Positions 22,380 through 37,552 of a stretch of 37,552 nt of DNA are shown piece by piece. Each line of letters begins with the position of its first letter. Within the stretch, counting starts at the first letter, position 1. This DNA comes from a virus, in IMG/VR virus record IMGVR_UViG_3300025889_000357, positions 1-37,552 of that record, one strand, 5' to 3'. The notes beneath the pieces are model-generated. The model was not told the DNA's origin and made no database searches. It worked only from the letters and a program-made list of their open reading frames with translations. The position numbers were made by a program, and so were the translations under genes.

Positions 22380-22762
22380 TACTTCATAGCCTTTCCAAAT
22401 CCACGCAAAGCTTTACCACAACCACGAGGTGAACTTACCTTACCACCTTTTTTAAATTGTTTATTTTTAACAGTTTCGTTTTGTTTGTACAACTCATTTA
22501 ATTTTTGAACAGAAGGATTAGAAGAAAACTTTTCTTTATAAGTTTTTAAGTTCATTCCTTGTTGTTTAGCTTCTTGTCTAACTTTATCTTGTTGACGAGT
22601 TAATGCTTTAACTGTTGCTGTACGATGATGCCTAGATTTAGCTGCGCTTTCTGCAGGTGTTTTAGGATTTTTCTTTAATTTACTTGCTTCTTTTTTAGCT
22701 AAGTTTTTTGAAGCTAATTTTCTTGACGCATCTAAAGCTTTAAGTATTTTTGTAACAGACAT
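22379..22762 (-). CDS. Basic helical protein with GCGKALRGFGKAMK tail (127 aa)
   Basis: Start set at the ATG at 22762 (MSVTKILKALDASRKLASKNLAKKE), which overlaps the stop of the previous gene (TAATG). A longer frame from 22804 begins in the shared tail region of that gene and is a shadow. The body is Lys/Gln/Ala-rich helix (NPKTPAESAAKSRHH...). The last residues, GCGKALRGFGKAMK, are nearly identical to those of the 280-aa gene upstream. Function unknown. Confidence 0.6.
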   Translation of the reverse strand: MSVTKILKALDASRKLASKNLAKKEASKLKKNPKTPAESAAKSRHHRTATVKALTRQQDKVRQEAKQQGMNLKTYKEKFSSNPSVQKLNELYKQNETVKNKQFKKGGKVSSPRGCGKALRGFGKAMK

Positions 22763-28602: not shown

Positions 28603-31100
28603 TATACACCCTTCTTAGCGTCAGAGATAAGTTTAGTAATCATGTCTGCCGCTTTAAGCGTTTCGGTGTTTTTGGCACCTTCTTCTTGCTTGATAAGGTC
28701 TGCAAGGACTTCAACTGCCTTGATAGCCGCTTTTGAATTTCTATCTTTCTCTTTTTCATCAGCCTTCAGAGTATTCTCTGCTCCTACTTTATATGCATCC
28801 AGTGCCAGCTTTTGTTCTTTTAAGTCAAGGTCACGGTTTTTAAGCGCACCCTCTGTTGCTTCTTTAGCAAGCTGTGCCTGAATTTTTTGTTTTTCAATAT
28901 TCAACCTTTCAGCTTCTATCTGAACCATAGCTTGTTCTGGTGATGGTCCTGCTTGTGCAGCGGCTTGATTAGCTTGCATAACTTGTTGTGCAGCGGCTAC
29001 CATTACCTGCTCAATGACTGCAGGATTCTGAGCATTCGGGTCACCTTCTGGGGCTTCTGCCATCATTTGTCTTGTTACACCATTGACTTGCTCCTGATAT
29101 TTCATTACTACGTGTTCCTGAATATTAGCTTGTAGAATAGGTGCTACACGCTGCATAATAGGATTACCACCATTTGCAGGGTCTTGCATAAACATAGTTT
29201 TAATTTGAATGTGGGCATCATGGTTCTGTCCTGCAAACGCTTTAATAGGCAAGCCTTTAGTTGCTGCTTCAATATCTGTAACAGGGTCAAGAGGCTGTGC
29301 CTGTGGTTTGTCAGGTAGAATTTTATCAAGGTTAGGAATGTTAGCCGCATTAAGTAATGTACGGTTTAGTTCTTCCATATTAAACATTCCCGGAGGAGAT
29401 GTCTGTGCTAACTGCATTGCCATCTGTGTCATCATAAGGCGGTGAGCAGAAGACGGAATGTTAGGGTCACTAACCGGAACAACGTCTACACGTCCATCAA
29501 AGTCTTTACGGAATACATTCTCAGATATACCCGGAACATCATAAGGATATTCATTAGGTAAGCTTTCATAATTAATACGTGCAAGGATTTTAAATTCATC
29601 CTTTTGAGATTTATGTAGACGTTTATGAATAGCTGAGAAAAACTTACTAGAAGCTTCTAGCAACGCCATAGTTGTACCTACTGGTCCATAGTTAGAACCT
29701 TCGGTAATTACTTGTTCTGTTGTATCAGCAAACTTCTGACCCGCTGCTGCAGTAAACTGCATCATCTGGAATAGTGTGCTTGATGGTTCTTTGTACGGTA
29801 AAGGTACAATGGACTTAGACAAGTCCATACCTGTTGCTTCTACTTCTTTAAACTCACCCGGTGCAATAGGGTCATTGTCTCCTACTACACGAACACCTTT
29901 AGCTTTAAAGCCGCCGGGAAGGTTAGCAAACTGACCTGCATCAATAAGGCTACGCATAGCTGCAGTGGCAGACATAGTAAGGTTACCAAGGAAGTGGATA
30001 AGACCAAGACCGTAGAAACCAAAGCCCGGAACAAAACGATAATGAGTAAAGAACATTTTCTTTTCTTTATTCTTATCTTCTTCATTCCAGTTACGTCTGA
30101 TAGATAATACTTTTTGTGAACTTTCTTCAATAGTTACAATGTACGGACAAGCAGTAGGATAGTCTTCTAGTTCAAGATAACAATGCTGTTCTAGTAGTAC
30201 ATACTGTTGGTCAAGGTCTGAAGAAGGAGACAACCCAAGAACCGTGTCCATCTTTTCAGTCAAAGCGGATTGTTCTGGGTTGTAAGGGTCTGGAAGGTCT
30301 ATGTCTGCATACATACCAGATACCATGCCTTGTGCTATTTCTCTTGGACTACGGTATAGTACATGGGTATAGCGGTCAGCACGGCGTAGGTCTGTAGCAT
30401 AGTAAGACACATAGAACTGGTCAATAGGTACAAACTCACTTACTGGTCTGTCTACTGAGCCATCAAAATATACTTTCTTAAATGCAGAGCCTATCAACGG
30501 CAGGTGAAACAGCATACGTTCAAACTCATCAAAGTACTCAGGCATTTGCTCAGTAAGTTGATAGTTCATAAAGTTTTGTACACGGTTACCTTGCCGTTGA
30601 CGCTCCACGGTAGCATCTCCAAGAACTTGGGTTTTGACTGGACCACTGGAAGGAAAGAGTTCTTGGGATGCACGTGACTGGAATTTAACTGCTGACTCAA
30701 TCAGCAAAGGATGGACAGCGGTTGCTGCACCTTCAAAAGGTTCTGTAGTTTCTTCAAGTTTTAGGCCAAGCAAGTCAAATCCTCTTTCAAACATGGACTC
30801 CCACTCTGAACGAGATGCTTTATCTGCTTCAAACTTTTCATAGACTTCTGCGCCAATTTGAATAAGAGTGTCTTCATCAAGAGTATCAACTAGATTATCG
30901 TAGAAACCTTCTACATCAAAACCTACTTCCATCTCCATTTCAAACATTTCACCTTCTGGACTAAAAGAAACTTCTACTTCTCCTGTCTCAGGGTCAACTT
31001 CATAACTGACATTGTCTTCTGATTTTTGATTAATATTTAATTGAATGATGTTGTCCATGCCTTCAGGCATCACATCATTAGGATTTTTTTCTATTGCCAT
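28602..31100 (-). CDS. Portal protein, P22-type (832 aa)
   Basis: The dodecameric DNA gate at the capsid vertex. After an acidic N-terminal extension, residues about 105-320 carry the recognisable portal core (ADKASRSEWESMFERGFDLLGLK..., VHPLLIESAVKFQSRASQELFPSSG, SEFVPIDQFYVSYYATDLRRADR). Then there is a long helical region (ALIDAGQFANLPG..., TTEQVITEGSNYGPVGTTMALLEAS) and a C-terminal Ala/Gln/Lys helix (residues about 690-832), as in P22 gp1, whose C-terminus forms a barrel. Length fits that family. It lies directly downstream of the terminase large subunit, as expected. A promoter candidate is at 31134-31162. Confidence 0.82.
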   Translation of the reverse strand: MAIEKNPNDVMPEGMDNIIQLNINQKSEDNVSYEVDPETGEVEVSFSPEGEMFEMEMEVGFDVEGFYDNLVDTLDEDTLIQIGAEVYEKFEADKASRSEWESMFERGFDLLGLKLEETTEPFEGAATAVHPLLIESAVKFQSRASQELFPSSGPVKTQVLGDATVERQRQGNRVQNFMNYQLTEQMPEYFDEFERMLFHLPLIGSAFKKVYFDGSVDRPVSEFVPIDQFYVSYYATDLRRADRYTHVLYRSPREIAQGMVSGMYADIDLPDPYNPEQSALTEKMDTVLGLSPSSDLDQQYVLLEQHCYLELEDYPTACPYIVTIEESSQKVLSIRRNWNEEDKNKEKKMFFTHYRFVPGFGFYGLGLIHFLGNLTMSATAAMRSLIDAGQFANLPGGFKAKGVRVVGDNDPIAPGEFKEVEATGMDLSKSIVPLPYKEPSSTLFQMMQFTAAAGQKFADTTEQVITEGSNYGPVGTTMALLEASSKFFSAIHKRLHKSQKDEFKILARINYESLPNEYPYDVPGISENVFRKDFDGRVDVVPVSDPNIPSSAHRLMMTQMAMQLAQTSPPGMFNMEELNRTLLNAANIPNLDKILPDKPQAQPLDPVTDIEAATKGLPIKAFAGQNHDAHIQIKTMFMQDPANGGNPIMQRVAPILQANIQEHVVMKYQEQVNGVTRQMMAEAPEGDPNAQNPAVIEQVMVAAAQQVMQANQAAAQAGPSPEQAMVQIEAERLNIEKQKIQAQLAKEATEGALKNRDLDLKEQKLALDAYKVGAENTLKADEKEKDRNSKAAIKAVEVLADLIKQEEGAKNTETLKAADMITKLISDAKKGV

Positions 31101-31133
31101 TATCTTTCCTACCAGTTAAATTAAGATTTTTAT

Positions 31134-31162
31134 ATTATAGCTTTAAGTTCTCCAATATGCAA
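31134..31162 (-). promoter_or_regulatory. Candidate promoter before the portal gene
   Basis: Minus strand TTGCAT (31157-31162), a 17-nt spacer, and a perfect TATAAT (31134-31139), about 34 nt before the portal ATG at 31100. The -35 lies inside the end of the terminase gene. It would allow separate high-level transcription of the head genes. Confidence 0.45.
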
Positions 31163-32696
31163 CCCTCTTTCTTGTTCTTGGTTCATCTTCCCATGAAGGG
31201 TCTTCAGGGTGAATAAGGTTCCAACTGTCTTTCATATAATGAATAGCCATAGTCATACAGTCCACTTGGTCATCGTGTGCGCCATTAGGAAAAGACATAC
31301 ACTCAGAGTACACATCATCTGCCCATATTTTATCTGCAGGTAACCATACACGACCCGCCTCCATCATTGGAGTTGCTGCATACACACGCGACACTTTGTC
31401 TCTATCAGGAAGGTAGTCTAGTACAGGAAGCCCCGCCCTACGCATATCCTGCAGCAAAGACTGACCGGATGCCTTCTTTTCAATAATACATACATCAGGT
31501 CTAAAGTCTGCATAAAGTTCCTGTGCTTTACGTCTTAGTTCAGGATATTCAAATCTACCTCTTGTATTACCTAATAATATAATATTACTTTGTCCTTCTT
31601 CTATACCATATTCATTCTGCTCAAACGTGTAGAAGATACCCCATGTTTGTATTACACTGTAGTCAGCAGTTCTAGCTGTACTAAAAGCTGTATCATATGT
31701 TTGTAGTATAAAGTCACATGGTGGTGGTTCATCATCTTCCCACACCTGTATCCATTTCTTTTTAATAATACCACCGTCATCAGGAGAAGGGTCCTGCATA
31801 TATAATGCATTCCAGTACCTACTACCATTTGCTCCTCTGATTTCTTGCTCATCAATACGTAGTAACTCATCTGGCTTCCACTCAGGAAAGTAAGATGTAC
31901 CCTCTGGTAGCCCTAGTAACTCTGCAGCTTCTTCATTTAGCCACGCAGGAATACTAATTACTTCCCAAGGATATGCTGTTGTTTCTGTATTTGATTCTTG
32001 TTTTAACAACCACCCACATAAATCATCATAGTGGTATCTGGTATTAATAATAATAATTGCACCATTAGGCATGATACGAGTTCTAAGACCTGCGGGCCAC
32101 CATTCCTTAATGTACCTTCTACCTGCTTCTGAGATGGCATCTTCTTCAGACATAACGTCATCTAGTAGGGCTACGTGTGCGCCACGTCCTGCCACCTGAC
32201 TTCGTACACCTGCAGCATAGTAAGAACCATTCTTATTCGTCTTCCACTTACCTGCGGCCTTAACATCACTCCTCAAACTAATATCACGAAAAATCCGCTG
32301 GAACCTTGCGGTTCCGACTACGTCACGCACTGTACGTCCAAAGTCACTTGCAAGCTGCTCTGAGTGTGATAGAGACATAATCTCATGGTTACCATTATTA
32401 CCTATATACCAAGCAGGGAATAACTTACTACAGATTACAGACTTAGAAGAACGCGGTGGTAGGAATACCATCAATCTCTTTACATCCCCATCTACTACAC
32501 CCTGTAGCTTCTGACACAGTAATTCAATATGTTTACCCATCTTAAATTCAGATATAAGAGTAGGTGCAAATATCTTTACAAAGGTAAGGAAGTCTGTCCT
32601 TGCCATCATATCTGCATATTCATTTAATTTATCTTTAAGTGTTATGTAAGGAGCAGATTGTCTATTGTCTTCTTCTTCTGTATTACCATCTAACAT
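31143..32696 (-). CDS. Terminase large subunit (517 aa)
   Basis: The packaging motor ATPase and nuclease. Walker A-like residues 80-86 (PPRSSKS), Walker B 176-187 (ALLDDVMSEEDA), and a coupling segment at 217-226 (INTRYHYDDL) mark the ATPase. The nuclease half has D335 (YDTAFST), E406 (IIEKKASG) and D475/D476 (GAHDDQ), a spacing like RNase-H fold terminases of the psiM2-ORF9 type. The Walker A is degenerate (no GKT), as in that family. It starts in a TAATG overlap with the 66-aa gene. No small terminase subunit is recognisable here. Confidence 0.88.
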   Translation of the reverse strand: MLDGNTEEEDNRQSAPYITLKDKLNEYADMMARTDFLTFVKIFAPTLISEFKMGKHIELLCQKLQGVVDGDVKRLMVFLPPRSSKSVICSKLFPAWYIGNNGNHEIMSLSHSEQLASDFGRTVRDVVGTARFQRIFRDISLRSDVKAAGKWKTNKNGSYYAAGVRSQVAGRGAHVALLDDVMSEEDAISEAGRRYIKEWWPAGLRTRIMPNGAIIIINTRYHYDDLCGWLLKQESNTETTAYPWEVISIPAWLNEEAAELLGLPEGTSYFPEWKPDELLRIDEQEIRGANGSRYWNALYMQDPSPDDGGIIKKKWIQVWEDDEPPPCDFILQTYDTAFSTARTADYSVIQTWGIFYTFEQNEYGIEEGQSNIILLGNTRGRFEYPELRRKAQELYADFRPDVCIIEKKASGQSLLQDMRRAGLPVLDYLPDRDKVSRVYAATPMMEAGRVWLPADKIWADDVYSECMSFPNGAHDDQVDCMTMAIHYMKDSWNLIHPEDPSWEDEPRTRKRVAYWRT

Positions 32697-32896
32697 TAAG
32701 TATTAATTCCTTCTGTCTTTGTACATTTAAACTGTAATACTACAACTGGTGGTGTCCTTTCATCAGTAACAAAGTCACGCATCATTTCTGCTGCACGTGC
32801 TTTACATTCTAATTCTGTTTTATAAGGTCCACGTCTATCTTGTAATTCTATACAATCTTTATCTAATAGGCAAGCCAATACTAATGCCTCAAACAT
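32696..32896 (-). CDS. Small exported-like protein before terL (66 aa)
   Basis: Start set at the ATG at 32896, with AAGGAAGG upstream (a longer frame at 32935 lacks this). The protein starts hydrophobic (MFEALVLACLLDKDCIELQDRRG), has Cys in TELECKARAAEMM and near the end in LQFKCTKTEG. Plan and length match the 62-aa protein at 20244-20432. It is the first gene of the late block. Small Cys proteins of this type occur in other marine phages; function unknown. It is not a recognisable terminase small subunit. Confidence 0.6.
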   Translation of the reverse strand: MFEALVLACLLDKDCIELQDRRGPYKTELECKARAAEMMRDFVTDERTPPVVVLQFKCTKTEGINT

Positions 32897-32952
32897 TTTA
32901 ATACCTTCCTTAATAAAGTGTGACATATTTATCACACCTACAATGAAATCGT

Positions 32953-32961
32953 ATTATATCA
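32953..32961 (-). promoter_or_regulatory. Candidate extended -10 for the late block
   Basis: Minus strand TGATATAAT (TG-n-TATAAT), 57 nt before the start of the 66-aa gene. No good -35 at 16-18 nt upstream, but extended -10 promoters can act without one. This is the nearest good box to the late operon start. Confidence 0.4.
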
Positions 32962-33091
32962 TATTGCATAGTTATAAGAAATATGTTATTTTCTACTTAG
33001 TCCCACCGGGGTAAATATATACCTCCCCAAGACCCGACACACCCCTAGTTAGTGTTCCTAATAGACATCAGAGACAACAACAAAGCTAGTA

Positions 33092-33107
33092 AATTGTTTA
33101 CACAATT
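33092..33107. promoter_or_regulatory. Palindrome AATTGT-TTAC-ACAATT
   Basis: Perfect 6-4-6 inverted repeat, the same geometry as the TGTCAA boxes but a different sequence, located between the late promoter candidate and the divergent box. It could bind a second regulator. Confidence 0.4.
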
Positions 33108-33157
33108 AGTCATAACTAGGAAGCCCCCGGAGTAATACTATTTATTTTATAATATTT

Positions 33158-33177
33158 ATTATAACATTTGTTATAAT
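33158..33177. promoter_or_regulatory. 20-bp palindrome carrying divergent extended -10 boxes
   Basis: ATTATAACA-TT-TGTTATAAT, nine-base arms around two bases. Read either way it gives TGTTATAAT, an extended -10 (TG-n-TATAAT). It could therefore serve both leftward and rightward transcription, or simply be a hairpin or operator. Confidence 0.4.
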
Positions 33178-33322
33178 ATGAAAGACCCTTGTTTTTTTGT
33201 AAGTATATCTCAGGGGTATATTATATATATAAATGTCAAGTAGTTTTTTTGGTGGGGGTTCTCTAAAGAGTCTACCTAATCTACCAGAATTTTGACAGAA
33301 GAATCCTTTTCCCAACACAAAG

Positions 33323-33340
33323 TGTTGCATAAATGTCACA
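33323..33340. repeat. 18-bp direct repeat, copy 1
   Basis: TGTTGCATAAATGTCACA, identical to 33376-33393. It contains TGTCA, a half-site-like part of the nearby palindromes. Confidence 0.75.
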
Positions 33341-33375
33341 GTCAATCAAAATCTTTAGAGATTTTGTTAGACAAC

Positions 33376-33393
33376 TGTTGCATAAATGTCACA
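33376..33393. repeat. 18-bp direct repeat, copy 2
   Basis: Second perfect copy, 53 bp from copy 1. It ends about 24 bp before the first TGTCAA-N4-TTGACA box, so the repeat may be a binding site for the same or a partner protein. Confidence 0.75.
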
Positions 33394-33416
33394 CTTCATA
33401 GCGTATACATAGCCCC

Positions 33417-33432
33417 TGTCAATTCCTTGACA
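33417..33432. promoter_or_regulatory. Operator-like palindrome A
   Basis: TGTCAA-TTCC-TTGACA, perfect six-base arms. It is followed by GACACCTACCCA, which recurs at 33545-33556 after palindrome D. TTGACA equals the sigma70 -35 consensus, so binding here could block a promoter, though no good -10 follows at the right distance. Confidence 0.6.
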
Positions 33433-33448
33433 CCTACCCACCCCCATA

Positions 33449-33464
33449 TGTCAATTAATTGACA
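33449..33464. promoter_or_regulatory. Operator-like palindrome B
   Basis: TGTCAA-TTAA-TTGACA, perfect arms, fully palindromic across all 16 bases. 32 bp from palindrome A centre to centre, about three helical turns. Confidence 0.6.
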
Positions 33465-33471
33465 CTCTTAG

Positions 33472-33487
33472 TGTCAAAACTTTGACA
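33472..33487. promoter_or_regulatory. Operator-like palindrome C
   Basis: TGTCAA-AACT-TTGACA, perfect arms, 23 bp from palindrome B centre to centre, about two helical turns. Confidence 0.6.
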
Positions 33488-33532
33488 GTTCTATGAAGAT
33501 TCTAAGGAATCTTTGTAAGAGGATGTGTATAG

Positions 33533-33548
33533 TGTCAATTTCCTGACA
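33533..33548. promoter_or_regulatory. Operator-like palindrome D
   Basis: TGTCAA-TTTC-CTGACA, one mismatch in the arms. Followed by the same GACACCTACCCA as palindrome A. Confidence 0.55.
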
Positions 33549-33597
33549 CCTACCCAAACCCACACAATCCAATCACATACCTGCAAGTAATTGATAA

Positions 33598-33625
33598 ATC
33601 TTATTATTATTTATGATAATAAGAT
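33598..33625 (+). repeat. Hairpin related to the early-region element
   Basis: Stem ATCTTATTAT with GATAATAAGAT, loop TATTTAT, the same loop sequence as in the element at 37304. It lacks the TTAAG tail, so it is a diverged or ancestral copy. Confidence 0.5.
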
Positions 33626-33656
33626 ATATCAAGCTTCGGTTTTCCAAAGCAGCAAT

Positions 33657-33672
33657 CGTCAATTTTTTGACA
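33657..33672. promoter_or_regulatory. Operator-like palindrome E
   Basis: CGTCAA-TTTT-TTGACA, one arm mismatch. Lies just upstream of the second micro-ORF. Confidence 0.5.
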
Positions 33673-33743
33673 GTTTGATGAGCCAATCCTGTGCTGCATT
33701 ATGCGACATGATGAGGCATACGATGAGCAGTAATACTGCTTAG

Positions 33744-33759
33744 TGTCAAAATTTTGACG
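33744..33759. promoter_or_regulatory. Operator-like palindrome F
   Basis: TGTCAA-AATT-TTGACG, one arm mismatch, about 85 bp before the first early gene. A likely site to control early transcription. Confidence 0.55.
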
Positions 33760-33774
33760 AACCTTTTAGTATAG

Positions 33775-33800
33775 CCATTGTGAGTTCTTACGAACAATGG
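33775..33800 (+). repeat. Hairpin before the first early gene
   Basis: CCATT with AATGG enclosing GTTC-TTAC-GAAC, with a four-base bulge on the left. It is followed by AAGAT and then GGTTTTGGAGG before the gene, as in later elements. A diverged member of the series, or an independent hairpin. Confidence 0.4.
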
Positions 33801-33835
33801 CGTAACTAAGATAGCGGTTTTGGAGGCCGAATGAA

Positions 33836-34069
33836 ATGGAAAAGCTTTACACATTGCTGAACACCAAAGCGGATAAGATTGCATCACTATCACAAGAGGC
33901 TGCAGAGGCTCACTTGTATGCAATTTGCCTTGTCTCTCAAGGCAAGACACGCGATAGAACTTGTTCTGATATAGAACAAGTTGAGTTTGAATCACTTTGT
34001 GATTTGGCGTTTGAATGGTTCTGTCAAAAGTTTGACGTTCCATACTTTGGCGCATATTATGGTGAGTAA
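33836..34069 (+). CDS. First presumed early protein (77 aa)
   Basis: Start at the ATG at 33836, with GGAGG about 9 nt upstream; an ATG at 33831 is out of frame and closes after nine codons. A helical, fairly acidic protein (MEKLYTLLNTKADKIASLSQEAAEAHLYAICLVSQG...) ending VPYFGAYYGE. Small acidic helical early proteins of phages often bind and inhibit host factors, but no family was recognised. It contains palindrome G (34022-34037). The hairpin element at 34091 follows its stop. Confidence 0.65.
   Translation: MEKLYTLLNTKADKIASLSQEAAEAHLYAICLVSQGKTRDRTCSDIEQVEFESLCDLAFEWFCQKFDVPYFGAYYGE
34022..34037. promoter_or_regulatory. Operator-like palindrome G, inside the first early gene
   Basis: TGTCAA-AAGT-TTGACG, one arm mismatch. 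The codons (CQKFDV) accommodate it, so it may be a true internal site or chance; the match in spacing to the others makes chance less likely. Confidence 0.4.
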
Positions 34070-34090
34070 TACTCACTGGAATTTGCAGGG

Positions 34091-34136
34091 TTTAATATAT
34101 ATCTCTCTCTCTTTATGAGAGAGATATATGTTAAGA
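34091..34136 (+). repeat. Early-region hairpin element 1
   Basis: TTTAAT, then a 13-bp perfect stem (ATATATCTCTCTC with GAGAGAGATATAT), loop TCTTTAT, then TTAAGA. The next ATG is 29 nt after the TTAAG, with GGAGGG between. Confidence 0.8.
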
Positions 34137-34159
34137 TATGGCTTTTGGAGGGCTAAACA

Positions 34160-34249
34160 ATGGATGAAGATTTTGAAATTGACTATTGGTATCATGACGA
34201 CAGTCATGAAGGTTTCCAGCAATGGGATGAGGCTGGAAGCGAGGATTAG
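34160..34249 (+). CDS. Tiny acidic early protein (29 aa)
   Basis: ATG at 34160 is preceded by GGAGGG, with TAG at 34249. The product MDEDFEIDYWYHDDSHEGFQ, then QWDEAGSED, is very acidic, with aromatic and His residues. It is shorter than common ORF cutoffs but fits the one-gene-per-hairpin pattern on both sides. Function unknown; a decoy-like or inhibitor role is speculative. Confidence 0.55.
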   Translation: MDEDFEIDYWYHDDSHEGFQQWDEAGSED

Positions 34250-34250
34250 G

Positions 34251-34298
34251 TTTAAATATATATCTACTACTACTTATGTAGTAGATATATTTTAAGAT
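34251..34298 (+). repeat. Early-region hairpin element 2
   Basis: Perfect 13-bp stem (ATATATCTACTAC with GTAGTAGATATAT), loop TACTTAT, then TTAAGAT. Positions 34253-34298 are identical over 46 bases to 34441-34486. Confidence 0.85.
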
Positions 34299-34316
34299 AA
34301 CGATTTTGGAGGCTGA

Positions 34317-34421
34317 ATGAAAACACAACACTAGCTTTATGCTAGACATACAGAGCCAGCTATAGCTGGTCACTGCGTACTGCCTGAGAGTGCTTGGCAT
34401 GGCAATCAATTAGCACTATAA
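34317..34421 (+). pseudogene. Short early ORF interrupted by an amber codon
   Basis: Behind hairpin element 2 and GGAGG, ATG at 34317 reads MKTQH and then TAG at codon 6. If read through, the frame continues LYARHTEPAIAGHCVLPESA and ends in TAA at 34421 (34 codons). The ribosome site and spacing match other genes, so this looks like a gene broken by a stop, or a short leader peptide. Small inverted repeats CTAGC-TTTAT-GCTAG (34331-34345) and CCAGC-TATA-GCTGG (34356-34369) suggest that a structured RNA is an alternative. TAG is used as an ordinary stop elsewhere here, so general recoding is unlikely. Confidence 0.4.
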
Positions 34422-34439
34422 ACTGCCAGTTACGAGGTA

Positions 34440-34486
34440 TTAAATATATATCTACTACTACTTATGTAGTAGATATATTTTAAGAT
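34440..34486 (+). repeat. Early-region hairpin element 3
   Basis: Same 13-bp stem and loop as element 2, TTAAGAT after it. Identical to element 2 across 46 bases, so the pair brackets the amber-interrupted ORF and could recombine it out. Confidence 0.85.
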
Positions 34487-34498
34487 GGGGATTTTGGA

Positions 34499-34753
34499 AT
34501 GAGGAAATGTTGTTGTTGTGATACCAACATAGACCTATTCTATGTTGATAGTGCTGATGATTATTTTTGTGGATTTTGTCATGGTGAACAGTTTTATCGT
34601 GCTGAATTTGATAATGGTTATCAAATGGCAAAATCTGAAATAGACAATGGTGATATAGATGCTGAGATGGCTATCTTGTCATTTGAACAAGACCCACCTG
34701 TCTATGCTAGACACTGGGGGTTTTTGAAAGCTTGTATTGACGAAATTAACTAG
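34499..34753 (+). CDS. Cys-rich early protein, zinc-ribbon-like (84 aa)
   Basis: Begins MRKCCCCDTNIDLFYVDSADDYFCGFCHGEQFY. Four Cys at residues 4-7 and a CGFCH pair later suggest a two-knuckle zinc ribbon (CxxC ... CxxC). The rest is acidic and helical (YQMAKSEIDNGDIDAEMAILSFEQD). Small zinc-ribbon proteins in phage early regions often bind host RNA polymerase or regulators, but this is inference. The ribosome site seen elsewhere is disturbed here: the ATG comes directly after GGA, and the nearest usable purine run is GGGGA about 9 nt upstream. Confidence 0.65.
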   Translation: MRKCCCCDTNIDLFYVDSADDYFCGFCHGEQFYRAEFDNGYQMAKSEIDNGDIDAEMAILSFEQDPPVYARHWGFLKACIDEIN

Positions 34754-34754
34754 G

Positions 34755-34800
34755 TTTTAATATACTTATCTCTCTCTTGTGAGAGATAAGTTTATTAAGT
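34755..34800 (+). repeat. Early-region hairpin element 4
   Basis: 11-bp stem (ACTTATCTCTC with GAGAGATAAGT), loop TCTTGT (6 nt), then TTTATTAAGT. Next ATG is 28 nt after TTAAG. Confidence 0.8.
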
Positions 34801-34822
34801 AAACAGTTTGGAGGCCGAAAAA

Positions 34823-34993
34823 ATGCAGATAGATATTGACGTAGTCAACTGGGAAATCCAGAATGAAGAACCACTGTTTGAAGTATCAACAACTGATGGC
34901 GAGGTGCTGGCAGTTGTGGATGCACAAGAGGTTCAAGACATAGTGTCTTGGGGCTTTGTCCATAAAGGACAAACACTTTGGTTGAAAGACTAA
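34823..34993 (+). CDS. Small acidic early protein (56 aa)
   Basis: Start at the ATG at 34823 (MQIDIDVVNWEIQNEEP), with GGAGG 8-9 nt before; the TTG start at 34808 would sit on the ribosome site. Beta-rich (LFEVSTTDGEVLAVVDAQEVQDIVSWGFVHKGQTLWLKD) and acidic. It looks like a small barrel. Function unknown. Confidence 0.6.
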   Translation: MQIDIDVVNWEIQNEEPLFEVSTTDGEVLAVVDAQEVQDIVSWGFVHKGQTLWLKD

Positions 34994-35002
34994 CAGCCAA
35001 GG

Positions 35003-35048
35003 TTTTAATATACATATCTCTCTCTTTATGAGAGATATGTTTATTAAG
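35003..35048 (+). repeat. Early-region hairpin element 5
   Basis: 11-bp stem (ACATATCTCTC with GAGAGATATGT), loop TCTTTAT, then TTTATTAAG. Here the next start (35103) is 59 nt away, farther than in most copies. Confidence 0.8.
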
Positions 35049-35102
35049 CATATCGGTTTGGCAATCTCGCCAAGCCAAAACAGCCAACAATGGAGGGTTC
35101 CA

Positions 35103-35363
35103 ATGGCTTTCAGAAACGCTTTTCATCTTTCATCTTCAACTCTTGCAGCTATGGTATTAGCTAGAGTAAGGCATGAAGATGCTTTAGAACAAGATGCAAA
35201 CGACTTATTCAGTCGTCTGTTTATCAAATCGGTTGACCAAATGGGCATTGACCTGATTGGTGAAAAGATTTGGAACATTCTTGTTGAGAAAGAATGTTTT
35301 GAACCGCATCAAGTAAGACTAATGATTCGGCATATAAATGCCGGATGGTTTGAAGCGGCCTAA
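35103..35363 (+). CDS. Small helical early protein (86 aa)
   Basis: Start at the ATG at 35103 (MAFRNAFHLSSSTLAAMVLARVRHEDALEQDAN), with GGAGG about 6 nt before; the frame open from 35028 lies in the hairpin element and is not a gene start. Helical (LFSRLFIKSVDQMGIDLIGEKIWNILVEKECF). Function unknown. Confidence 0.6.
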   Translation: MAFRNAFHLSSSTLAAMVLARVRHEDALEQDANDLFSRLFIKSVDQMGIDLIGEKIWNILVEKECFEPHQVRLMIRHINAGWFEAA

Positions 35364-35365
35364 AC

Positions 35366-35413
35366 ATTAAATAAACAGTGTATATACTTTAGTGTATACA
35401 CTGTTTTTTAAGA
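35366..35413 (+). repeat. Early-region hairpin element 6
   Basis: ATTAAATA, then 15-bp stem (AAACAGTGTATATAC with GTGTATACACTGTTT, one G-U-type pair), loop TTTA (4 nt), six T and TTAAGA. Compare element 7: the same except one paired change. Confidence 0.85.
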
Positions 35414-35425
35414 AGGGATTTTGAA

Positions 35426-35602
35426 ATGACCTATGAACAGTATGTAAAAACCTATGAAGGTATGCTTACTGAATACCTTAACAACTACAAGCCAACAAAC
35501 GTACCATCTGAAGTTAAGAAGATGGTAGCAGCGGCAGATAAGCTTGTAGATTTTGAAGAAATCTATCCTGAGTATGCTGCAAAATACGAAGCACAATTCT
35601 AA
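35426..35602 (+). CDS. Small early protein (58 aa)
   Basis: ATG at 35426, AGGGA about 8 nt before, TAA at 35602. Tyr/Glu-rich, helical (MTYEQYVKTYEGMLTEYLNN..., KKMVAAADKLVDFEEIYPEY). Just under the usual length cutoff but fits the element-gene-element pattern. Function unknown. Confidence 0.6.
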   Translation: MTYEQYVKTYEGMLTEYLNNYKPTNVPSEVKKMVAAADKLVDFEEIYPEYAAKYEAQF

Positions 35603-35605
35603 ACT

Positions 35606-35653
35606 ATTAAATAAATAGTGTATATACTTTAGTGTATACACTATTTTTTAAGA
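35606..35653 (+). repeat. Early-region hairpin element 7
   Basis: Same geometry as element 6 (15-bp stem, loop TTTA, T run, TTAAGA). Compared with it, the pair C-G at stem position 4 is T-A here, a compensatory change. Confidence 0.85.
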
Positions 35654-35674
35654 TAGCAATTTGGAGATTGAAAA

Positions 35675-35899
35675 ATGAAACAGGTTACTGATAAGTATGG
35701 TGATGTAATGAATGAGATTGCCTTGCGTCATGTTGGCAATGGTGATTTGGTTAAGAGAAAGCCAGATGCCAAGGCAGTCTATGTCGTAAATCATTACGAC
35801 AGAGCCAGTAAAACTTACAGTCTTTCAGACTGGAACGATATGAACAGAGAGATTTTCCTTAAACCATCTACAATGGTTTATGTCGGATTTACTTTCTAA
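35675..35899 (+). CDS. Small early protein (74 aa)
   Basis: ATG at 35675 with GGAG about 9 nt before. Lys/Asp/Tyr-rich mix with a beta-like C-terminal half (KAVYVVNHYDRASKTYSLSDWNDMNREIFLKPSTMVYVGFTF). Function unknown. The stop is followed by hairpin element 8. Confidence 0.6.
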   Translation: MKQVTDKYGDVMNEIALRHVGNGDLVKRKPDAKAVYVVNHYDRASKTYSLSDWNDMNREIFLKPSTMVYVGFTF

Positions 35900-35903
35900 A
35901 CTA

Positions 35904-35950
35904 TTAAATAAATACTACCTACTACTTATGTAGGTAGTATTTTTTAAGAC
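35904..35950 (+). repeat. Early-region hairpin element 8
   Basis: 13-bp stem (AAATACTACCTAC with GTAGGTAGTATTT), loop TACTTAT, T run and TTAAGA. After it no ribosome-site-plus-ATG appears at the usual distance. Confidence 0.8.
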
Positions 35951-36116
35951 TAAATTCAAAAGCCAATGAGGGGTTTTGTTGTAGTGAATTGATAACCCAT
36001 TGCAATATACCTATTGCTAATGAAGCCAAGCCTTATCACCTTGCTTTGTTAGGAAATACGCCACCTATTGGGGGCAGCATTGGTTTTTGAATATAGTCTT
36101 AATATGGAGATTTGAG
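35951..36116 (+). other. Non-coding or decayed slot between elements and the next gene
   Basis: About 165 bases with no good ATG gene. One frame stays open to the TGA at 36090, with only a TTG at 35989 as a start (33 codons, MITHCNIPIANEAKPYHLAL...), so it may be a gene that lost its start. A 6-4-6 palindrome GCAATA-TACC-TATTGC lies at 36002-36017. A small RNA or a leader is an alternative. Confidence 0.35.
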
Positions 36117-36281
36117 ATGGATGTTGAAATTTATAAATCGCTTTCAATGTATGACTTTGCAATGGATGTATATCAAAAAGCTATGCATATGAAAGTAAAC
36201 CAAAATGCTGAACATTATGATGTTCAGGAAATTATTAACCATCTACAATTCATTGTAGATACAGACAAGTCGGAGTCTTAA
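36117..36281 (+). CDS. Small early protein (54 aa)
   Basis: ATG at 36117 (MDVEIYKSLSMYDFAMDVYQKAMHMKVNQNAEH), with GGAG about 9 nt before. Acidic helical protein. Its stop directly precedes the next ATG. Function unknown. Confidence 0.6.
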   Translation: MDVEIYKSLSMYDFAMDVYQKAMHMKVNQNAEHYDVQEIINHLQFIVDTDKSES

Positions 36282-36443
36282 ATGGTAAATTTTCTAATAT
36301 GTTTGTATATGGTTTGCACTGGCATGATTGTATTTGTCATGGCATCTTTAGATGGCAATGGGCTGTTTGTCTTTGGTTCATTGGCTTTAATTGTCGGCGG
36401 TATCATGTTAATGATACAGGAAATCTCAGAAGGGAATGTGTAA
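36282..36443 (+). CDS. Small membrane protein (53 aa)
   Basis: ATG at 36282 directly after the stop before it (TAAATG); ends TAA at 36443. Two hydrophobic stretches (VNFLICLYMVCTGMIVFVM and LFVFGSLALIVGGIMLMI) with a short turn between, so a two-helix membrane protein. It could be an anti-host or superinfection factor, which is a guess. Too short for usual cutoffs. Confidence 0.55.
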   Translation: MVNFLICLYMVCTGMIVFVMASLDGNGLFVFGSLALIVGGIMLMIQEISEGNV

Positions 36444-36444
36444 A

Positions 36445-37068
36445 ATGTTTGTAAAACATCAGTCAAAGATTATGAAATGGGCAATGAAAAATGCTGATAA
36501 CATTTTTCTTTTAATCCTGATGGTATCGTTGTCTATCCGGCAGCCTTGGGCTGTAATTGGTAAGCAATTACAAGACGTTCAGGAAAATGGCATGGCATCC
36601 AAGTTCCTATTTGGTTCAAAGAAAGAACTATATGCTTACATGATGGACAACAAACAAGATATCTTTGATATCTTGAAAGCAACCAAAGCTGGTAAAGTTT
36701 CACAAGCTGACTGCTTGTATAAACTTACACAAATACCCGGACTTGGCCTTGCCAAGGCTGGATTTGTGATGCAGCTTGCCATCGGAATGGCTGGCTGTAT
36801 TGATAGTCACAATGTGACTATGTATGGTGTCAATCCTAATGCCTTGAAGATGGGCAAGGTCAAGGCTGAGAAAGCCTTGGAGAAAGCCAAGATGTATCTT
36901 GAACTGTGCGATAAGCTTGGCGGCACTGAGAAGCTATGGGATAACTGGTGCAACTTTGTTGCAACAAGACATCCAAAACATTTTGAAGATGGGTATGATG
37001 TATCTGCAAGGCATTGCTCATACCTTGGAATTAAACCTCAGTCTTTTATGGAAAGACTGTTTAGCTAG
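36445..37068 (+). CDS. Helix-hairpin-helix protein, DNA glycosylase-like (207 aa)
   Basis: Start at the ATG at 36445, one base after the previous TAA, with AAGGGA upstream; a 3-codon longer start overlaps that site. Residues 97-107 read IPGLGLAKAGF, a helix-hairpin-helix DNA-binding motif (hPGxGxxxA), and D120 (GCIDSHNV) sits where endonuclease III-type glycosylases have their catalytic Asp. No iron-sulphur Cys cluster at the end. I recall similar phage genes in cyanophages. It likely binds DNA and may act in base repair or nuclease work. The first 35 residues contain a hydrophobic stretch. Enzyme activity is inferred only. Confidence 0.65.
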   Translation: MFVKHQSKIMKWAMKNADNIFLLILMVSLSIRQPWAVIGKQLQDVQENGMASKFLFGSKKELYAYMMDNKQDIFDILKATKAGKVSQADCLYKLTQIPGLGLAKAGFVMQLAIGMAGCIDSHNVTMYGVNPNALKMGKVKAEKALEKAKMYLELCDKLGGTEKLWDNWCNFVATRHPKHFEDGYDVSARHCSYLGIKPQSFMERLFS

Positions 37069-37078
37069 GAGAAAAGCT

Positions 37079-37294
37079 ATGAAAATTTGGAAACCTGAAG
37101 AAATTAAATGGCGTGATGAAGGCAACGATACATTTGTATCGGAGCCTTTGGTCATGGCTTCAAATGCTGGCTGGTATATCGGAGAGATATACAAGGAGTC
37201 AGATGGTTTTGTCATGCCTTATGACAGGCTGTCTGATTACCATTCCACACCTGAAGAGGTGGCACAACTCATTGAAGAGTTGGGCTGGAATTAA
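37079..37294 (+). CDS. Small early protein (71 aa)
   Basis: ATG at 37079 with AGGAG about 8 nt before; the long open frame from 36899 overlaps the previous gene and is not used. Trp/Glu-rich with a helical end (TPEEVAQLIEELGWN) and GWYIGEIYKESDGF, a small mixed fold. I recall related short genes in marine phages without function. Confidence 0.6.
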   Translation: MKIWKPEEIKWRDEGNDTFVSEPLVMASNAGWYIGEIYKESDGFVMPYDRLSDYHSTPEEVAQLIEELGWN

Positions 37295-37303
37295 CCAGCA
37301 AAC

Positions 37304-37350
37304 ATTAAATATATATAACCCTTATTTATGAGGGTTATATATTTTAAGAT
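37304..37350 (+). repeat. Early-region hairpin element 9
   Basis: 12-bp stem (ATATATAACCCT with AGGGTTATATAT), loop TATTTATG, then TTTTAAGAT. Next ATG is 28 nt after TTAAG. It is 1.4 kb from element 8; the genes between are not preceded by elements. Confidence 0.8.
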
Positions 37351-37371
37351 ACCAAAAATGGAGATTTGAAA

Positions 37372-37552
37372 ATGTGTGTGAGATATGATGTAGATAAAAT
37401 GACCTTTGACATTGTCAAAGATGGTTTGATTGAAGCCTTGGAAGAAAGCAAAGATGAAATCTTTGGCAGTCAATATCCAGAGGATATGTTGCATGAAATT
37501 GTGGACAGTAATGTCCCAATTTATCACAGTGATTTGGCAGACATTCTGTCTG
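37372..37552 (+). CDS. Early protein, N-terminal part (cut by window edge)
   Basis: ATG at 37372 after hairpin element 9, with a GGAG site. The 60 codons present (MCVRYDVDKMTFDIVKDGLI, EALEESKDEIFGSQYPEDML, HEIVDSNVPIYHSDLADILS) are acidic and helical. No family recognised, and the rest lies outside the window. Confidence 0.55.
   Translation, partial: MCVRYDVDKMTFDIVKDGLIEALEESKDEIFGSQYPEDMLHEIVDSNVPIYHSDLADILS

Follow-up and report, generated by a model that had tools for sequence, protein, structure and literature searches.

The stretch of DNA analysed here (the window) comprises the 37,552 nucleotides, positions 1 to 37,552, of IMG/VR virus record IMGVR_UViG_3300025889_000357, which is itself 37552 bases long and stems from an uncultured marine phage, and it carries a series of AT-rich hairpins in the gaps between small genes at its right end. 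Structural genes on the minus strand extend up to position 32935 and are followed by a control region and then by small plus-strand genes, which we call early from their position and size. A search of a phage collection by DNA gave only weak chance matches and no near relative among deposited phages; the closest large terminases are those of the pelagiphages HTVC023P and HTVC027P and of phage DSL-LC04, at 38–39% identity, and a search of genome contigs for a host with terL gave no match. The divergent control region (33240–33780) holds many TGTCAA-N-TTGACA palindromes and a repeated TGTTGCATAAATGTCACA, with similar motifs in two more distant contigs (L011 and L018), and the palindromes are probably operators of an early regulator.

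An earlier note on this DNA had described nine repeated hairpins in front of the early genes, and all nine are present where it placed them, between 34091 and 37351, on the plus strand and in intergenic gaps. They are listed here with two upstream hairpins that the note regarded as diverged copies:

33591..33632, plus strand: leader hairpin of the divergent control region; 16 bp with one A.A mismatch, loop with TTATG; weak model match
33775..33800, plus strand: short irregular hairpin before the first early gene; CCATT..GTTC-TTAC-GAAC-AATGG, then TAAGATAG and a Shine-Dalgarno (SD) sequence; read from the sequence
34091..34138, plus strand: hairpin 1, CTCTC type, precedes a 29-aa gene (start ~34160); folding, model match E=1.8e-10
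34252..34299, plus strand: hairpin 2, CTACTA type, precedes a 5-codon open reading frame (ORF) and a non-coding cassette; folding, model match
34440..34487, plus strand: hairpin 3, CTACTA type, precedes the 84-aa gene 34499-34753; model match, comparison with the ortholog in contig L084
34756..34802, plus strand: hairpin 4, CTCTC type, 1x1 mismatch at the base, precedes gene 34823-34993; model match
35004..35048, plus strand: hairpin 5, CTCTC type, 1x1 mismatch at the base, precedes gene 35103-35363 after a 54-nt spacer; folding, model match
35367..35415, plus strand: hairpin 6, GTGTATA type, precedes gene 35426-35602; folding, model match
35607..35655, plus strand: hairpin 7, GTGTATA type, precedes gene 35675-35899; folding, model match
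35904..35951, plus strand: hairpin 8, CTACCTA type, precedes a 168-nt conserved non-coding stretch and gene 36117-36281; folding, model match
37305..37351, plus strand: hairpin 9, AACCC type, precedes the gene starting at 37372; model match, comparison with relatives

Nine inverted repeats with a stem of at least 11 bp occur in 33501–37552, whereas 300 dinucleotide shuffles gave 0.03 on average and never more than 2, and the whole window has only 12 with a stem of at least 10 bp. None of the nine overlaps a coding sequence, though by a rough gene list about 75% of the region is coding. They begin 1–21 nt after the preceding stop codon, except for one copy behind a non-coding segment (104 nt), and end 13–25 nt before the next start in seven cases and 54 and 168 nt before it in the other two; in most copies the SD sequence sits 9–11 nt past the TTAAG. 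One hairpin thus precedes nearly all early genes that are started separately. Genes that overlap or tightly follow the previous gene (36282, 36436 and 37079) have no hairpin. As for the two upstream candidates, 33591–33632 is a good hairpin of 16–17 bp that is found in relatives too, with a perfect 17-bp counterpart in contigs L083 and L085, whereas 33775–33800 shares the general architecture only.

The architecture, described originally as a stem of 11–15 bp and a loop of 4–8 nt, can be refined. Perfect Watson-Crick stems measure 11–13 bp with loops of 6–10 nt, and a 15-bp stem with a UUUA loop is obtained only in the GTGTATA type by counting U.G pairs. RNA folding indicates that the outer TTAA boxes pair as well, forming a basal helix of 5–6 bp below the main stem, which is set off by a 1-nt bulge in the TTAAATA types or by a 1x1 mismatch in the TTTTAATATAC types; the exceptions are the CTCTC/GTTAAG copies (34091 and position 7813 of L085), in which the gap is closed by a U.G wobble. 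The distance from the irregularity to the loop is 11–15 bp in most window copies and 10–12 bp in two other families (families 2 and 3). Outside the stem, the conserved elements are the left T.AATA, the right TTAA(G) and a (Y)UUA loop core, and the boxes stand 38–40 nt apart in 28 elements. In the flanks of these 28 no base is strongly conserved beyond the hairpin and the SD region: upstream of the left box none reaches 1 bit apart from the adjacent T, and the downstream leader (approximately TTTTGGAGG) has low conservation. A run of U behind the stem is likewise not conserved (ATATGTTAAG, AAGTTTATTAAG); conservation is seen instead in the TTAA box, which pairs. An ATG in the loop was considered as the start of a leader peptide and dropped, as it reads ATG TAG in the CTACTA types.

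The same element is found in related phages. Of the terminase relatives in IMG/VR the 80 best were kept; three contigs among them, with 88–97% terminase identity, reach far enough into the early operon (L005/L083, L006/L084 and L009/L085), and all three have hairpins at matching places. In the 57321-bp contig of a relative (G001), 12 inverted repeats with a stem of at least 10 bp were found, of which 11 lie in 29448–34495, directly downstream of the control region; ten of these share the architecture and one (30406) does not, and a piece-wise scan of the remainder gave the twelfth, at 22699. A covariance model, a check proposed in the earlier note, was built from 20 copies and run against 950 kb of mostly related phage sequence, where it gave 28 strong matches (E<=2e-7), only in the window, L083, L084 and L087. 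All are on the sense strand within four early operons, and they score 55–70 bits there and 25–33 bits on the opposite strand. Rfam gave no match above threshold and none that was convincing. When IMG/VR was scanned with degenerate DNA patterns for hairpins of the window type, most matches were due to chance, and a hairpin-filtered scan listed members only from contigs already known. Metagenome contigs of this phage group (L003, L004, L011 and L229–L238) frequently stop within or close to the hairpin region, as though assembly were interrupted by the repeats.

Stem sequences of different types with pairing maintained were an original observation on this element, and the alignment bears it out. 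In 20 elements with 13 upper-stem pairs (260 cells), 98.7% of the cells are paired, compared with 68.7% after shuffling and at most 69% in slid registers; changes on both sides occur at 10 of the 13 pairs, and the co-variation score is 0.845 versus 0.25. The pairing thus lies far above the level of shuffled AT-rich sequence, although the number of independent events is smaller than the number of cells because the elements fall into about seven stem types. Pairing at the shuffled level and a lack of copies in related phages were two outcomes that the note had named as refuting its reading, and neither was observed. Only four of the 260 cells are G.U pairs, all in one type, so that the stems seem to change in blocks, which probably arise by copying between repeats; several identical copies occur within single genomes. 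Stronger evidence than these counts comes from the direct comparison of the window with L084 at the hairpin before gene 34499, where both arms have been exchanged while pairing, loop and boxes are the same, the downstream 271 nt are 99.3% identical and the upstream flank that was compared differs at a handful of positions. The replaced stem is fully compensated, flanking identity at this hairpin is largely above 95%, and in such comparisons it reaches 97–99%. The hairpins that precede segments s2, s3, s5, s7 and s8 show like swaps, mostly with one orthologous flank only. A separate family (L269, L272 and L273) is 100% paired, with double changes at six pairs.

The hairpins also coincide with the borders of exchanged early-gene modules. 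Among four contigs, the window included, the segments bounded by hairpins have been reshuffled, gained and lost: segment s5 of the window corresponds to s3 of L083, where it is placed directly behind s2, and L084 has a foreign s2 between the shared s1 and s3. The gene downstream of 37305 is preceded in the window by a hairpin and a different upstream gene, and in three relatives by another gene that runs tightly up to it with no hairpin between. Being repeated, the elements may additionally serve as homology patches for recombination of the early-gene cassettes, a role suggested by the pattern among these four contigs.

Two of the intervals beside the hairpins are largely non-coding. Positions 34317–34439, between two hairpins, have a strong SD sequence and only a 5-codon ORF (MKTQH), followed by about 105 nt of conserved non-coding sequence that is approximately 91–93% identical in L084 and L085; this looks like a small structured RNA cassette. 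The stretch between hairpin 8 and gene 36117 (35949–36116, about 168 nt) is approximately 94% identical in L083 and is possibly another structured RNA.

More distant marine phages have repeated hairpins of their own with other letters. Bulged examples occur in L011 (two), L018 (three of 24 bp) and L057, L073 and L078 (two each); not all copies in L018 and L011 stand directly before a gene, some being in the control region. Further contigs were collected as helicase relatives or by pattern. In this set, where some contigs were fetched twice under different locus ids, GTAACTCT..ACTACTACTTAGTAGTAGT..AGAGTTAC elements precede primase/helicase and other genes, with two or three each in L305, L310, L312, L314–L316, L318, L319 and L322 and one each in L320, L323 and L324. 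At about equal height, the helix of these elements is interrupted by a 3′ bulge, a 1x1 mismatch or a 5′ bulge. Contig L273 has five (A)GTGTATCA..CACGAAGTG..TGATACAC(T) elements, and more are present in L269 and L272. In the fetched stretches of the isolates HTVC023P, HTVC027P, HTVC103P, HTVC104P, HTVC115P, CRP-125 and DSL-LC04, no hairpin of at least 15 pairs was found near a start.

Apart from the hairpins, the window encodes a 210-aa early protein (36436–37068) with relatives of about 30% identity in Roseobacter-type, Paracoccus and Microcystis phages, and the early operons of both L018 and L273 contain apparent homologs; the window copy and its G001 relative (L087:11816-12439) have no PHROG match. 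G001 also carries a 772-aa gene (L088:7583-9901) that joins methyltransferase-like and MptE-like domains.

A layout of one hairpin per early gene was thought at the outset to be uncommon, which is wrong, because phage T7, the promoter early stem-loops (PeSLs) of T4-type phages and HGTV-1 all have such a layout. The best parallel is T7, whose early RNase III sites are irregular hairpins that stand before genes 0.3, 0.5, 1 and 1.3 when the T7 record is folded; sites R0.3, R0.5, R1, R1.1 and R1.3 were placed by the RNase III cut positions. As in the window, there is one irregular hairpin per early gene or gene pair, the stems are similar among copies, and an upper helix of 9–13 bp is followed by an irregularity and a lower helix. 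R0.3, R0.5, R1 and R1.3 end approximately 27–35 nt before the next start; in the shared plan the distance to that start is roughly 13–35 nt. The T7 sites differ in having larger internal loops and GC-richer stems, whereas the elements described here are AU-rich, often with a single bulge, have a conserved UUA loop and TTAA boxes, have stems that are fully replaced between orthologs, and belong to a group in which a relative lacks a T7-type RNA polymerase.

Other comparisons are less close. The PeSLs and the HGTV-1 motif, an inverted repeat before most left-arm genes, are short repeated stem-loop cassettes between small early genes associated with module shuffling (PMC4503421, PMC3950731); they carry a promoter or TATA-like box, and none is evident in the window hairpins. 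In cluster K mycobacteriophages, the start-associated sequence (SAS) and extended start-associated sequence (ESAS) form an inverted repeat upstream of a conserved ribosome-site sequence at many genes, and the authors find little support for mRNA hairpins (PMC3203893), unlike here, where pairing is strongly kept through double changes. The ESAS arrangement, a 17-bp inverted repeat pair beside a 13-bp start-associated sequence related to GGGATAGGAGCCC, is absent from the elements described here, which have only the poorly conserved leader noted above. No literature was found on this layout in HMO-2011-type phages. What is new is thus not one hairpin per early gene but its occurrence in this phage group, the replacement of stems with pairing kept, the reappearance of such hairpins, spelled in unrelated letters, in several lineages, and their position at module borders.

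The placement between stop codon and SD sequence, the fixed strand, the maintained pairing and the irregularity of the helix together argue for a role in RNA, and the parallel with T7 leads us to prefer processing of an RNase type, or protection of RNA ends, at the boundaries of cistrons, that is, a post-transcriptional signal, at about even odds. RNase III or stability sites had been among the roles first proposed; they are plausible and now preferred, with cleavage itself a predicted step. Each hairpin would be a cis-acting element on a polycistronic early transcript, lying immediately past a gene's stop codon and, towards the following start, just clear of the ribosome footprint. The folded RNA would be recognized by a double-strand-specific RNase, either host RNase III or a similar enzyme, and cut at or near the irregularity, which would separate the early cistrons and leave each downstream message beginning just ahead of its own ribosome site. 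In a milder form, the hairpin would stay uncut, protect RNA ends and insulate neighbouring translation units. Consistent with such a signal, the hairpins are intercistronic with an irregularity about one helical turn from the loop, the irregularity recurs in other lineages as a 5′ bulge, 1x1 mismatch or 3′ bulge, and the hairpins are absent at overlapping or closely following genes. Several properties weigh against it: RNase III does not need the degree of sequence specificity seen in the conserved loop core and boxes; T7 has internal loops larger than the irregularity; the U.G-closed copies noted above have no true bulge; the upper helix is at least 16 bp in L018 and L327/L328, more than one turn; and G.U pairs are rarer than expected for a slowly drifting RNA helix, to which block-wise copying or a function at the DNA level may contribute.

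The hairpins might instead be RNA operators, at which one phage or host RNA-binding protein reads the bulge and UUA loop and shifts translation of all early genes together, much as coat-protein and gp43 operators control single genes. The conserved loop core and boxes beside variable stems and the ends 9–11 nt ahead of the SD sequence in most copies would suit this explanation. We consider it the main rival, if a rather unlikely one: loops differ between related families (CACGAAGTG in L273, and variable loops in the distal hairpins of L083, L084 and L085), two window copies lie 54 and 168 nt from the next start, and no candidate protein was identified. An element acting in DNA, as a single-stranded or cruciform hairpin for recombination or for a nuclease or transposase (REP/IS200- or attC-like), with its position at gene boundaries as a by-product, would account for the scarcity of G.U intermediates, the identical copies within a genome and the exchange of modules at hairpins. 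The tight stop-SD placement and constant orientation suit a role in mRNA instead, and we noticed no transposase or integrase of this kind among the G001 genes that were searched, so we regard a DNA-level function as very improbable.

If the hairpins were PeSL-like cassettes, each with an early promoter and a stem-loop terminator, they would drive module shuffling, and the exchange, gain and loss of hairpin-bounded segments resembles that described for the PeSLs and HGTV-1. This part fits; the promoter part fails, because promoter-like sites in the region equal those in shuffles (18 versus 18.5), and neither an upstream base of 1 bit beyond the adjacent T nor a U-run behind the stem is conserved, and we think the reading quite unlikely as a whole. 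The same scan and conservation profile led us to reject sigma-70 promoters. Promoters for a phage polymerase, another of the roles initially proposed, are not supported: the flanks have no further conspicuous position, an argument against a promoter, and PF00940 (single-subunit RNA polymerase) is absent from G001 and G010 in a search that does find T7 and CRP-125, and was not found in the incomplete window. An N4-like virion polymerase was also judged unlikely, since the largest G001 gene found encodes 1267 aa and the N4 enzyme has about 3500 aa. Leaky or attenuating intrinsic terminators behind each gene, also suggested earlier, draw on the 4–6 T after or inside the 3′ arm of several copies and on an excess of terminator-like matches over shuffles (19 versus 2.5), though most of these matches are not the plus-strand hairpins. 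The case is weak and the explanation improbable: a terminator should have a GC-rich stem directly followed by a U tract, whereas these stems are AT-rich, the CTCTC types have no U-run, the TTAA box pairs with the base and leaves no free U tract, and nine terminators in series would silence the operon without antitermination.

Finally, we note what the hairpins may mean for these phages. If the processing interpretation is true, the marking of every early-gene boundary with a structured RNA signal, as in T7, would extend to marine phages without a T7-type polymerase, with direct evidence that the structure and not the stem sequence is kept. A broader proposal, which we offer tentatively, is that this is a widespread cistron-boundary RNA element of marine podoviruses, in which constraint acts on the base, the irregularity, the length of the helix and the core of the loop, the letters of the stem are rapidly replaced in compensated blocks, and a dedicated phage or host factor reads the irregularity and UUA loop, controlling and delimiting interchangeable early cassettes. 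With their replaced stems the hairpins amount to naturally occurring compensatory mutants, on which the requirements of a processing enzyme or a binding protein could be tested. They also offer a way of locating where early-gene cassettes begin and end in uncultured phages; several contigs of such phages apparently stop in this region.

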